Below are positions 38,638 to 43,554 of a stretch of DNA of 64,000 bases, one piece after another. The DNA is taken from positions 186,001 through 250,000 of the forward strand of contig NZ_JOMG01000004.1 in the NCBI RefSeq assembly GCF_000711225.1, given 5' to 3'. The position numbers and the translations under genes were made by a program. Below the pieces are notes generated by a model. The model had not been told where the DNA came from, did not search any database, and saw only the letters and a program-made list of their open reading frames with translations. Each line of letters opens with the position of its first letter. The first letter of the stretch is position 1. This DNA comes from Pelobacter seleniigenes DSM 18267. Lineage in GTDB: Bacteria; Desulfobacterota; Desulfuromonadia; Desulfuromonadales; Geopsychrobacteraceae.

Positions 38638-40299
38638 ATGATCGAAGGCAAAACAACCGGGCTGAAAGCCAGCCAGATTCAGGCTCTGGAGCGGATCTAC
38701 CGGCGCAAGATTTCCGCCGACGAGCTGATTACCAGCGAACTCGCCCGCTATCTCTGCGAGCTTTCTTTTGAGATTCAACGCCAGGTCGGGGTAGTCATCG
38801 ACCGCTCCGGCACTATTCAGTATGTCATTGTCGGCGATGATCGGGAGATCGTCATTCCGGATCTCTCCCGTTTCAGTCTCGGCCGTAGCGGCCTGCGCGG
38901 TCTACGCTGCGTACATACCCACCTGAAGCAGGAACCCTTAAGCCGCGACGACTTAACCGACCTTGAGCTGCTGCGGCTGGATAGTATGGCCGCCATCGGG
39001 GTGCGTGATGATGGTCTGCCCGGCAATTTTGAATACGCTCACCTGCTGCCGACCAAGAAAAAAGCTCAGCTTGAAACCGTCACCCTGCGCGATTTTTATC
39101 GTCTCGATCTTGATTTCGGTGCATTTATTCAGGCCCTCGATCAGGAGATGGAGCGCCTTGCCGACGAGACCGTGGTCCTCGATGACGGGCGCGAACGGGC
39201 GCTGCTGATTTCGGTCGGGCAGGGTTCCCGGCGCCAGGTCGAAGATTCCCTCGACGAGCTGGAGGAACTGGCGCGCACCGCCGATCTGGCGGTCATCGAC
39301 CGGATGATTCAACGGCCGCGGCAGATCAACCCGCGCTTCCTGGTCGGCGAAGGGAAATTGCGCGAGATCGTCATCAGCGCCCTGCAGCAGCGGGCCACCC
39401 TGCTGGTCTTTGATCAGGAGCTGACCCCGACCCAGATCCGTTCCATCTCGACCATCACCGAAATGAAGGTTATCGACCGCAGCCAGCTGATCCTCGATAT
39501 CTTTGCCCGCAGAGCCCAGTCACGGGACGGCAAGGTCCAAGTGGAACTGGCCCAGCTCAAATATATTCTGCCCCGGTTGCGCGGCAAAGGGACGGCCATG
39601 TCCCGGTTGATGGGCGGCATCGGCGGTCGCGGACCCGGGGAAACCAAGCTGGAAATCGATCAGCGGCGCACCCGGGACAAGATCCGTCGGCTGGAAAAAC
39701 AGCTCGATTCCCTCGGGCGGGGGCGGATGCAGCGGCGCCAGAAACGGATTCGCGCCGGGGTTCCCATTGTCTCCATCGTCGGCTATACCAATGCCGGCAA
39801 GTCGACCCTGCTCAACGCCCTGACCCAGAGTGAGGTGCTGACTGAAGACCTGCTTTTTGCGACTCTGGATACGGCCACGCGGCGGCTCCGTTTTCCCATG
39901 GATCGGGAGGTGATCATCACCGACACGGTCGGTTTTATTCGCGATCTGCCACCGAGTCTGCTCGGGGCCTTCAAGGCGACCCTGGAAGAACTGGAGGATG
40001 CCGATCTGCTGCTGCATCTGGTCGACCTGTCCAACCCGCGCTTCGATGAACAAATCACCGCAGTCGACAAAATCCTTGATGAACTGGAACTGGGGCGCCG
40101 GCAGCGCCTGCTGGTCTTTAATAAAATTGACAAGGTGCCGCCGGAGGATTTGCCACATCTCTGCCGACGTTATCAGGCGGTTGCTGTCTCAGCCTATGAC
40201 CGCAAGACTTTTTCCGCTCTGCTGGAAGAGATGCAGCGCCGCTTCTGGCCGGAAGAGGACCTTCTGACCGGTGCCAGCTGCAAACTTGACATAAATTGA
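38638..40299 (+). CDS. hflX: GTPase HflX, long form with extra N-terminal domain
   Basis: A 553-residue ribosome-associated GTPase, against about 426 in E. coli. The C-terminal G domain is complete: G1 GYTNAGKST (382-390), G3 DTVGF (from D429), G4 NKID (495-498). The HflX-specific domain before it has the glycine-rich GGIGGRGPGETKLE loop. HflX splits or rescues stalled 70S ribosomes under stress. The extra residues 1-170 carry HTH at 93-95, S102 and D105, the spacing of a JAMM/RadC-type metal site (HxH, six residues, SxxD), after conserved E41/E45. Function of that domain is unknown. No clear Shine-Dalgarno site precedes ATG 38638. Confidence 0.93.
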   Translation: MIEGKTTGLKASQIQALERIYRRKISADELITSELARYLCELSFEIQRQVGVVIDRSGTIQYVIVGDDREIVIPDLSRFSLGRSGLRGLRCVHTHLKQEPLSRDDLTDLELLRLDSMAAIGVRDDGLPGNFEYAHLLPTKKKAQLETVTLRDFYRLDLDFGAFIQALDQEMERLADETVVLDDGRERALLISVGQGSRRQVEDSLDELEELARTADLAVIDRMIQRPRQINPRFLVGEGKLREIVISALQQRATLLVFDQELTPTQIRSISTITEMKVIDRSQLILDIFARRAQSRDGKVQVELAQLKYILPRLRGKGTAMSRLMGGIGGRGPGETKLEIDQRRTRDKIRRLEKQLDSLGRGRMQRRQKRIRAGVPIVSIVGYTNAGKSTLLNALTQSEVLTEDLLFATLDTATRRLRFPMDREVIITDTVGFIRDLPPSLLGAFKATLEELEDADLLLHLVDLSNPRFDEQITAVDKILDELELGRRQRLLVFNKIDKVPPEDLPHLCRRYQAVAVSAYDRKTFSALLEEMQRRFWPEEDLLTGASCKLDIN

Positions 40300-40367: not shown

Positions 40368-42005
40368 ATGCTCAAGTTTTCTGCTGCTATTTCGGTGCTG
40401 ATGCTCTTTCTGTTTGGTTGCCAACCGATGGTTCATCAGTCACCCCTCTCTTCAGAGAGCCCGATTGCCCGGTCCGCTACGCCACTGCAGGGCCCGACCG
40501 AAGGGTCCTCCCCGGAGTCCGCAACAGATCCCGTAGCGGTTTCCGCGTCCGTTATCCCTGACTTTGTGCTCCCTTCCGTGCCAAGCCTGCCGGAGGCGGT
40601 TGACGACTATCTGAGTGAAGAAGCGCCACTGCCGTACAACGGTGATTTTCCGCTCAGTCATCATGAGCGGGTCGATAACCTGATCGCCCGTTATACCGGG
40701 CCGCAGAAGAAGACCTTCAGTCGCTGGCTTGAGCGGGCCGGACGCTACATCCCCAAAATACAGATGGTTTTTGCCAGCGAAGGGATCCCTCTGGATCTCT
40801 CTTATCTGGCCATGATCGAATCGGGCTTCAATGTCCGGGCTTACAGCTGGGCCAATGCCGCAGGACCCTGGCAGTTTATCGAAAGCACCGGACGGCTGTA
40901 CGGATTGCAGAACGACTGGTGGCAGGACGGCCGCCTTGATCTGGAAAAGTCGACCCGCGCCGCCGCCCAGCATCTCAAATATCTGCATGACCGGTTTGAC
41001 GGCAACTGGTATCTGGCGGTCGCCGCCTACAATGCCGGCGGCGGCAAGGTCCGCCAGGCGATCAAGGCCAGTCAGAGCACGGATTTCTGGACCCTGGTGG
41101 ATGGCAATGTCCTGCGCGAGGAGACCAAAAACTATCTGCCCAAGCTGCTCGCCACCCTGGAGATTGTCAAAGATCTTGATGAGTACGGCTTCAGCGATCT
41201 CGATTTCGATGAGCCCCTCGCCTATGAAACCATCACCCTGGCGTCGAGCACCGACCTGGAAATCATTGCCGGTTTCGCCGGGGTCAGCTACGAGGAACTC
41301 AAGGAGCTGAACCCGGAACTCAAGCGCTGGTGTACTCCGCCGGGCGTCAAGAACTACCCGCTGCATGTTCCTTTTGGCAGCGCGCGACAGATCAGCGCCC
41401 TGTATGCCGAGCTGCCAACCGATCAGCGTGCCCGCTATCATCGTCATCAGATCAAGGCCGGCGATACCCTGCGGGCCCTGGCCCGGGAATACCATATCCA
41501 GGTCGACGATATCATCGCGCTGAACAATATCAAAAATCCCCGCGCGATTCAGATCGGCACCAACCTGATTCTGCCCCTTAAGGAAGGTTATACCAGGCTG
41601 CCCGTCAATGAGTTGGCCGACTCCTATGTTCGCAGCCGCAGGAAAACCTACCAGGTGCGCTCCGGGGACAGCCTCTGGTCCATTGCCCGGCGCTTCTCCG
41701 TGACCGAAAAAGAACTGCGGGTCTGGAATAAGCTCGGCTGGAGCAATATGCTCAAGCCCGGCCAGCTTCTGGCCGTTTCCAAACCGGGCGCGGTCCGCAT
41801 CGCCCAGCAGTCCCGCACCACCAGCAAAGGGCCAATCCGTAAACTGGTCTATAAAGTCATGCCCGGCGACACCCTGTGGGGCATCAGCCGTCAGTTTGAT
41901 GTCGATACCGAACAGATCATGCGCTGGAATGAGCTGTCCAAAGAGCATGTGCTGCAGCCCGGGCAGAAGTTGACACTGATGGTTGCTTCCAGCCGTCAGG
42001 GGTAA
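40368..42005 (+). CDS. mltD: Lipoprotein lytic transglycosylase with three LysM domains (MltD-like)
   Basis: A 545-residue cell-wall enzyme. The lipobox LFGC places the lipidated cysteine at C18, anchoring it in an outer membrane. The SLT domain (about 105-240) has the catalytic Glu in LSYLAMIESGFN, with AAGPWQFIESTGRLYG and VAAYNAGGGKVRQAI. Three C-terminal LysM repeats (HQIKAGDTLRALARE, YQVRSGDSLWSIARRF, YKVMPGDTLWGISRQF) bind peptidoglycan. It cleaves glycan strands to 1,6-anhydro-muropeptides during wall turnover. A promoter candidate lies inside the end of hflX. Ribosome site CCCGGAGG precedes the start. Confidence 0.95.
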   Translation: MLKFSAAISVLMLFLFGCQPMVHQSPLSSESPIARSATPLQGPTEGSSPESATDPVAVSASVIPDFVLPSVPSLPEAVDDYLSEEAPLPYNGDFPLSHHERVDNLIARYTGPQKKTFSRWLERAGRYIPKIQMVFASEGIPLDLSYLAMIESGFNVRAYSWANAAGPWQFIESTGRLYGLQNDWWQDGRLDLEKSTRAAAQHLKYLHDRFDGNWYLAVAAYNAGGGKVRQAIKASQSTDFWTLVDGNVLREETKNYLPKLLATLEIVKDLDEYGFSDLDFDEPLAYETITLASSTDLEIIAGFAGVSYEELKELNPELKRWCTPPGVKNYPLHVPFGSARQISALYAELPTDQRARYHRHQIKAGDTLRALAREYHIQVDDIIALNNIKNPRAIQIGTNLILPLKEGYTRLPVNELADSYVRSRRKTYQVRSGDSLWSIARRFSVTEKELRVWNKLGWSNMLKPGQLLAVSKPGAVRIAQQSRTTSKGPIRKLVYKVMPGDTLWGISRQFDVDTEQIMRWNELSKEHVLQPGQKLTLMVASSRQG

Positions 42006-42040
42006 GATCGACTTTCGGCGTTCTTTGCCTTTCGATTGTT

Positions 42041-42069
42041 TTGACATTTTGAGCACAGATTGTTAAAGT
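42041..42069 (+). promoter_or_regulatory. Sigma-70 promoter ahead of the TPR-like/Smr gene pair
   Basis: TTGACA (42041-42046), 17-base spacer, TAAAGT (42064-42069). The -35 box is perfect and the -10 box matches 4/6. Transcription would start just at the hairpin at 42073. Confidence 0.6.
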
Positions 42070-42072
42070 TCA

Positions 42073-42099
42073 GCGCCGTCCGCGTCTTCGGGACGGCGC
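42073..42099 (+). other. 5'-terminal leader hairpin
   Basis: A perfect 9-bp GC-rich stem (GCGCCGTCC / GGACGGCGC) with a nine-base loop. It sits at the expected 5' end of the transcript from the promoter at 42041, so it may stabilise the mRNA, or alternatively end transcripts from mltD. Confidence 0.5.
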
Positions 42100-42133
42100 G
42101 TCTGTTGACACTCTGTTAAAAAGGATCGGTGCC

Positions 42134-42859
42134 ATGCTCAATATAATCATTTCGTTTGCCTGCGCAGTGTTGACCTCGGCTCTTATGCTGAGATTCGTCA
42201 CCCAGAATACCTGGCTTGCGGCAGGAGCTTCCCTGCTGGTGTTTCTTGGCGTATTTTTGCTCATCGCCAGGACCGTGATGAAAAAAGTCGGTGCCGTGAT
42301 GCAGGTTGCCCAGCGCGATGTCATGGCCAACCGCAGCGATAAGGCGATCAGGGAATTGAACGCGGCCATGAAATACGGCCCCTGGCAGTTCTATGTGAAA
42401 CAGCAGGTTTATTCCCAGATCGGCAGCATTCACTATATCAAGCGCGAGTTCAATGAAGCGATCCCCTTCCTGCAGAAGGGTTTTGTCCGTAACTGGATGA
42501 GCATGTCGATGTTGGCGATTAGCTATATGAAAAAAAACAAGCCGGCGAAGATGAAGGACACCTTTGACCAGGCCATAACCGGCAGTCGGAAGGAGCCGAT
42601 GGTCTATGCTCTCTATGCGTTTTGCCTGGAGCGAATCGGCGAACACTCGAAAGCCATGGACATTCTCAATAAAGGGATTTCCAAAACCGGTGGTGATGAG
42701 CGCCTTAAGGAAAATTTGGCGCTGCTCGAAGCCGGCAAGCGGATGAAGATGAAAGGCTTTGGCGATATGTGGTACCAGTTCCATCTGGAAAAGCAGGGCG
42801 CCATCATCAAGAAACAGACCAAAGCCCTGACCGGTCGCCGCAAGCAGATGATTCGGTAA
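42134..42859 (+). CDS. Membrane-anchored TPR-like protein, function unknown
   Basis: A 241-residue protein. Two predicted membrane helices (about 3-20 and 27-46) are followed by a cytoplasmic helical region with TPR-like periodicity (NRSDKAIRELNAAMKYGPW, FNEAIPFLQKGF, HSKAMDILNKGI). The tail is strongly basic (KKQTKALTGRRKQMIR). TPR repeats usually mediate protein binding; the partner is unknown. AAAAAGGATCGGTGCC supplies the ribosome site. The Smr gene starts five bases after its stop, so the two are cotranscribed. Confidence 0.75.
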   Translation: MLNIIISFACAVLTSALMLRFVTQNTWLAAGASLLVFLGVFLLIARTVMKKVGAVMQVAQRDVMANRSDKAIRELNAAMKYGPWQFYVKQQVYSQIGSIHYIKREFNEAIPFLQKGFVRNWMSMSMLAISYMKKNKPAKMKDTFDQAITGSRKEPMVYALYAFCLERIGEHSKAMDILNKGISKTGGDERLKENLALLEAGKRMKMKGFGDMWYQFHLEKQGAIIKKQTKALTGRRKQMIR

Positions 42860-42864
42860 AGGGC

Positions 42865-43554
42865 ATGGCACGGAAAAAGAGTCAAAAGAATGTCCGTAAG
42901 AAAGACTTTGTCAGCAACCCCTTCAGCCATCTGAAGGGGTTTTCTGTTCCTGAGAGCGAGGCTTCGAAACAGCTGGAAACGCCAGCCCCGGATCTGCCGG
43001 TAGCGGAAGACGGGTTGTCTTTTCAGCAGGAAATGGCCCAGCTCGGGGTGAAACCGCTGGATCCCGAGGCCGCCTCTGCCCATGGTGCAGACCCTTCCGA
43101 AGAGGGTGAAGGAGCTGGCGGCGAACCCGCAGAACTCACCGAAGAGGAGCTTTTTCTGGCCGAAATGAGCCAGCTGCAGGTTCGCTTTGAAGACAGCTTC
43201 GTCGATGCAGAGGATGAACCGGCAGTGGCTTCTTCCCGTCGGCTCAAGCAGCTGAAACAGGGCAAAATAGTGCCGGACGCCACCCTTGATCTGCATGGGC
43301 TGACCCGTCCTGAGGTTGCTCCCAAATTTGACCGCTTTCTGCACAATGCTCGTCACCATCATTGGCAGACCCTGTTGGTGATTACCGGTAAAGGGCTGCA
43401 CTCCGAGAGCGGGGAGGCCGTGCTGCGCCAGGAAGCGGAGCGTTACCTGGCCGGACCGGGCCGGGCCGAGGTTGCCGAATGGCATCAATCTCCCGCCCGC
43501 TACGGCGGGGCAGGGGCGCTGGTTCTGTTTCTGAAAAAGCAGATCATTACCTGA
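42865..43554 (+). CDS. Smr-domain protein (MutS2-like nuclease domain)
   Basis: A 229-residue protein. The basic N-terminus (MARKKSQKNVRKK) and an acidic linker lead into a C-terminal Smr domain (about 135-229). The Smr hallmarks LDLHGLTRPEV and ITGKGLHSESGEAVLR, and a final GGAGALVLFLKK, are present. Stand-alone Smr proteins include nucleases acting on RNA at collided ribosomes (SmrB-type) or on DNA. The catalytic-type DLH motif is intact. ATG 42865 lies five bases after the upstream stop; the longer ORF from 42769 is out of frame inside that gene. Confidence 0.9.
   Translation: MARKKSQKNVRKKDFVSNPFSHLKGFSVPESEASKQLETPAPDLPVAEDGLSFQQEMAQLGVKPLDPEAASAHGADPSEEGEGAGGEPAELTEEELFLAEMSQLQVRFEDSFVDAEDEPAVASSRRLKQLKQGKIVPDATLDLHGLTRPEVAPKFDRFLHNARHHHWQTLLVITGKGLHSESGEAVLRQEAERYLAGPGRAEVAEWHQSPARYGGAGALVLFLKKQIIT

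Follow-up and report, generated by a model that had tools for sequence, protein, structure and literature searches.

A predicted MPN/JAMM-fold domain fused ahead of the ribosome-splitting GTPase HflX, probably without catalytic function in Desulfobacterota

Why would a GTPase that splits ribosomes carry an additional domain with the signature of a metalloprotease? Stalled ribosomes are rescued by HflX, which also has a part in antibiotic tolerance; proteins of the JAMM family take off ubiquitin-like tags. An earlier note on a 64,000-nucleotide stretch of Pelobacter seleniigenes DSM 18267 (hereafter, the window) proposed that the two are joined in one protein, with a deubiquitinase-like metal domain at the N-terminus of HflX. 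The reading frame and its coordinates, the identity of residues 91-105 (CVHTHLKQEPLSRDD) and the assignment of His93, His95, Ser102 and Asp105 with a gap of six residues (HxH-x6-SxxD) were all confirmed on the sequence (Table 1). The protein possesses the N, M and G domains of an HflX GTPase: TIGR03156 (GTP_HflX) matches residues 187-535 with an E-value of 9.7e-134 and a score of 445.7 bits (cut-off, 216.75), and PF13167, PF16360 and PF01926 score above cut-off, the first Pfam domain starting at residue 202. With the core beginning at residue 187 and residues 1-171 returning no match in Pfam (E up to 10) or NCBIfam (E up to 1), the existence of an extra N-terminal domain is borne out.

Table 1. 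Features of the hflX locus, in positions of the window
Feature	Position	Strand	Basis
hflX (553 aa), encoding the ribosome-splitting GTPase and its additional N-terminal domain	38638..40299	+	ORF; TIGR03156
Extra N-terminal domain, residues 1-171	38638..39150	+	outside Pfam and NCBIfam; conserved across the phylum
Predicted MPN/JAB-fold core, residues 28-159	38719..39114	+	AlphaFold model, match to PfJAMM1 (5ld9)
Gln49, position of the JAMM catalytic Glu	38782..38784	+	pairwise alignment to Fusobacterium HflX (Glu there)
His93-Thr94-His95, JAMM HxH zinc-ligand pair	38914..38922	+	alignment of 153 relatives
Ser102, JAMM Ser position (relatives S/T/N/D/A)	38941..38943	+	alignment of 153 relatives
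Asp105, JAMM Asp zinc-ligand position	38950..38952	+	alignment; helix 103-111 in model
HflX core: GTP-bdg_N, GTP-bdg_M, G domain	39196..40242	+	Pfam, NCBIfam
LysM/SLT lytic transglycosylase, TPR protein and Smr-domain protein, 3' of hflX	40368-43554	same as hflX	

The fold of the domain was modeled twice. An AlphaFold2 model of the window domain with 23 relatives (model 1) reached a mean pLDDT of 90.7 and a pTM of 0.88, and an AlphaFold model of a 49% identical homologue, L022 (model 2), reached a pLDDT of 79.9. Searched against the PDB with Foldseek, model 1 retrieved CSN6 first (4qft, E 3e-3), with further signalosome MPN chains and AF2198 close to it. With VIA-align 2, PfJAMM1 (5ld9) led the list for this model (Z 7.5, rmsd 3.4 over 111 residues), followed by an archaeal Rpn11 homologue, Rpn11, AMSH, Sst2, BRCC36 and Cap3. 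A bacterial Ubl-deubiquitinase complex and RadC also appeared, and nearly all of the 31 top entries belong to the JAMM/MPN/RadC superfamily. The two best Foldseek matches of model 2 were PfJAMM1 (5ld9, E 2.7e-2) and AF2198 (1oi0, E 3e-2); upon re-alignment, JAMM proteins were mixed with cytidine deaminases, one of which was the top chain (Z 6.5). For both models, every re-aligned Z lies below 8 and every Foldseek E-value against the PDB is at or above 1e-3. Because the single scores are moderate, the assignment is carried by the agreement between the match lists, which predicts an MPN fold for the HflX N-terminal domain and, with it, membership in the JAMM/MPN/JAB group. The comparison of residues 1-170 with RadC and JAMM folds that the earlier note had called for thus came out in its favor, at moderate scores. 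Model 1 comprises a helix (33-46), strands at 50-55, 60-65 and 89-95, and a further helix (103-111). Residue 49 falls directly ahead of the first core strand, the HxH pair closes strand 89-95, and Asp105 lies near the start of the last helix; we take these to be the secondary-structure positions demanded by the JAMM motif.

In the published motif, EXnHS/THX7SXXD, zinc is bound by His and Asp, and Glu is predicted to act as the acid-base catalyst (PMC300881). A homologous HflX domain from Fusobacterium fits this motif in full (PMC300881), reading REINIAIDRNG...HTHPGGNPHLSSVD and thereby carrying the entire E49...HTH-x7-SxxD signature. It is part of a long HflX, of approximately 600 residues, in two Fusobacterium records deposited as plasmids, the only records with the domain in a search of the plasmid collection. 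The window and Fusobacterium domains are 34% identical over 135 residues (E 4e-26). Their alignment is gap-free to residue 77 and sets Gln49 opposite Glu49; farther along, HTHLKQEP-LSRDD of the window protein pairs with HTHPGGNPHLSSVD, the window loop being one residue shorter. The complete motif in so clear a homologue argues for homology of the family to JAMM proteins. The earlier note placed long HflX proteins with HTHPxG and the full spacing in clostridia; such proteins do exist, and were found here in Fusobacterium. The single clostridial HflX sampled, from Acetoanaerobium, is a 450-aa frame without the domain. The plasmid-borne HflX of Ilyobacter polytropus (Fusobacteriota) is also short. 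As for the records themselves, the 2.1 Mb "plasmid" of Fusobacterium vincentii that bears hflX (L055, NZ_CP084075.1) is apparently a mislabelled chromosome, as is NZ_CP154629.1 (Acetoanaerobium, 2.6 Mb).

The Fusobacterium domain shares E, HxHPxG and SxxD with RadC and Prok-JAB and produced three weak Pfam matches, including RadC (PF04002; E 0.038, 14.4 bits, below the gathering score of 22.1) and Prok-JAB (PF14464; E 0.095). Aligned by hhalign with RadC from the window's phylum, it gave 82.5% and a score of 37.4, compared with a maximum of 23.5 among 300 column shuffles; the signal disappeared when the sequence was reversed or the 14-residue motif was masked (masked score 12.3). The sequence link to RadC is made by way of the two sequences from Fusobacterium and hangs on the stretch that contains the motif. 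Profiles of the Desulfobacterota and Acidobacteriota domains did not match RadC by hhalign (probability approximately 1%), JAB families were absent from a Pfam scan of 37 domain members, and RadC PF04002 did not match the window domain in the Pfam scan. When PDB sequences were searched with the profile of the domain, a homeobox match alone was returned, which was not significant, and viral contigs scanned by protein and DNA pattern for complete-motif homologues yielded at most two unrelated short frames. The window lineage shares a predicted fold with RadC and Prok-JAB but no significant sequence match; it differs from them by Gln in place of Glu, Leu in place of the Pro after HxH, a loop one residue short, and fusion to a GTPase. 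Since RadC/JAMM proteins and Fusobacterium HflX have the complete signature in common, the complete JAMM site is, read most simply, ancestral, with Gln49 and the x6 loop derived, a polarity that one Fusobacterium genus supports.

The derived form is widespread. At least 111 of the 148 genomes sampled from the window's phylum, and 29 of 99 from the phylum of a MAG titled Acidobacteria (G148), encode a long HflX with the extra domain. An alignment of 153 domains (Fusobacterium left out, one genome counted twice) retains His93 and Asp105 in 152 rows each and His95 in 140, and residue 48 is Arg in 149. Residue 49 is Gln in 148 and Glu in three. Position 102 holds Ser or Thr in 126 domains and otherwise Asn, Asp or Ala, and about seven relatives depart from the x6 spacing between HxH and Ser. 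The second His is replaced by Ser, Gln, Arg, Val, Thr or Ala in 13 rows, at approximately five separate places in a tree of 139 domains, and so is dispensable. Arg90 and Asp115 are also strongly retained; together with the conservation of His93, Asp105 and Gln49, this indicates that the pocket region still matters, and some chemistry may remain given how His93, Asp105, Gln49 and Arg90 are kept. Glu41 and Glu45, previously described as conserved-looking and candidates for the catalytic Glu, both vary among the 153 relatives; neither aligns with Glu49 of Fusobacterium, which marks residue 49 as the true position.

Several members of the family merit separate mention. The Glu49 rows within Desulfobacterota (L202 from G024, L188 from G029 and L203 from G035) are scattered; one of them, L202, combines all five residues (E, H, H, S and D), but on the short x6 loop. 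In these three, Glu is as likely to have re-evolved from Gln as to have been retained. Domains L014 and L022, from MAGs titled Chloroflexi and Acidobacteria, respectively, both group with Desulfobacterota. The genome of L014 belongs to the window's own phylum, and G149, a genome labelled Chloroflexi, turned out to lie in that phylum; L022 adjoins family f16 in the tree, a placement whose support is modest.

The domain is thus a conserved part of HflX with an altered motif. A catalytic JAMM (MPN+) protein has Glu before the first strand and HS/TH-x7-SxxD, and the window protein has Gln49 and HTH-x6-SxxD, the residues of the latter being present. Co-conservation of E, H, H, S and D, which would have been expected of the proposed site, failed in the face of Gln49, the short loop and repeated loss of His95. 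Given these same three features, a working deubiquitinase-like site in the window protein is unlikely, and we infer that catalysis was lost in its lineage. Of the fusion first proposed, the predicted fold survives and the working site in this protein probably does not. We favor, with reasonable though far from full confidence, a reading in which an MPN/JAMM-fold domain fused ahead of HflX serves as a non-catalytic docking pseudo-JAMM in Desulfobacterota and Acidobacteriota and is perhaps active in Fusobacterium.

Three other readings were weighed against this one. His93, His95 and Asp105 could form a structural or sensing site that binds zinc or iron and couples metal status to HflX without catalysis. 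All three published zinc-ligand positions (PMC300881) are kept in the window protein and most relatives, yet the domain persists in several clades where His95 has been replaced (13 of 153 rows), and we regard this reading as unlikely. Quite improbable is the reading of the earlier note, in which the window protein would be an active metalloprotease of the JAMM type, Gln49 or some other residue standing in for Glu: although His93, His95, Ser102 and Asp105 are all there, and Glu49 occurs in three relatives from the phylum, one of them (L202) with the five residues at x6 spacing, the predicted acid-base Glu (PMC300881) is Gln in 148 of 153 domains, nearly every loop lacks one residue, and loss of the second His has recurred. 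When the domain was shuffled 20,000 times, a relaxed motif, HxH-x5..8-[ST]xxD, arose in 37 of the shuffles, and this rarity, combined with retention among relatives, argues strongly against a chance origin. The last reading, a coincidental motif in an unrelated alpha/beta domain with convergent HTHPxG in Fusobacterium, could appeal to moderate structure matches (Z <8) and nearly equal deaminase-like folds, but it is very improbable when one superfamily dominates the match lists of both models, the motif residues fall where they would be expected in the secondary structure, and all five JAMM residues occur in a clear homologue.

What a docking pseudo-JAMM would do on HflX is suggested by analogy. 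MPN-minus subunits such as CSN6, eIF3f/h and the Jab1 domain of Prp8 are JAMM folds whose metal site has decayed. CSN6 is the best Foldseek PDB match of the window model, and Prp8 and one eIF3 MPN chain are among the structural matches; these subunits are eukaryotic, whereas the window domain is bacterial and joined to a ribosome-splitting GTPase. Keeping one near-invariant His and the Asp, and usually both His, the pseudo-JAMM may still bind metal. Placed immediately before HflX domain ND1, it would dock on the 50S intersubunit face or onto a partner protein and so help HflX bind or split ribosomes, much as CSN6 and eIF3f/h act in their complexes. The passages of a review that treat N-terminal extensions describe a short one, in a mycobacterial HflX, that touches uL16, H38 and H69-71 and on which the disordering of rRNA during splitting depends; they note HflX extensions in Clostridium and Paenibacillus as well, and no domain of the present kind figures in them (PMC12493154). 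N-terminal additions can therefore act on the ribosome. Those passages give lengths of 39-58 residues for mycobacterial extensions, compared with approximately 170 here (PMC12493154). The E. coli, Listeria and mycobacterial proteins have the complete GTP-bdg_N, GTP-bdg_M and G-domain core in common with the window protein, and E. coli HflX is without its folded N-terminal domain of some 170 residues.

Among open-licence papers, none was found that describes this domain of HflX in connection with JAMM, RadC, MPN, JAB or deubiquitination, and a widespread part of HflX that lies outside Pfam and NCBIfam now gets a name. In Fusobacterium, and possibly in further lineages that have the complete E...HTHP-x7-SxxD signature, HflX might combine a ribosome-splitting GTPase with an active JAMM metalloprotease, the Desulfobacterota form being its pseudoenzyme descendant; we hold this only tentatively. 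The Fusobacterium domain may still work as a zinc isopeptidase or protease, and, if so, would cut some ribosome-associated or conjugated protein. With the site intact in one phylum and decayed in others, the fusion offers a direct way of asking whether ribosome splitting in bacteria is linked to proteolysis or de-conjugation.

The surroundings of hflX, with an enoyl-ACP reductase gene upstream and the genes of Table 1 downstream, do not point toward a ubiquitin-like pathway. The Smr-domain gene close to hflX may be worth attention, as Smr domains are found in ribosome-collision nucleases of other organisms. A RadC-like JAB motif, HNHPSG...SxxD, also occurs within open frames 917 and 846 codons long (L105 and L106; C2:945076-945297 in the window's genome), which makes another type of JAB fusion in this genome and its phylum.
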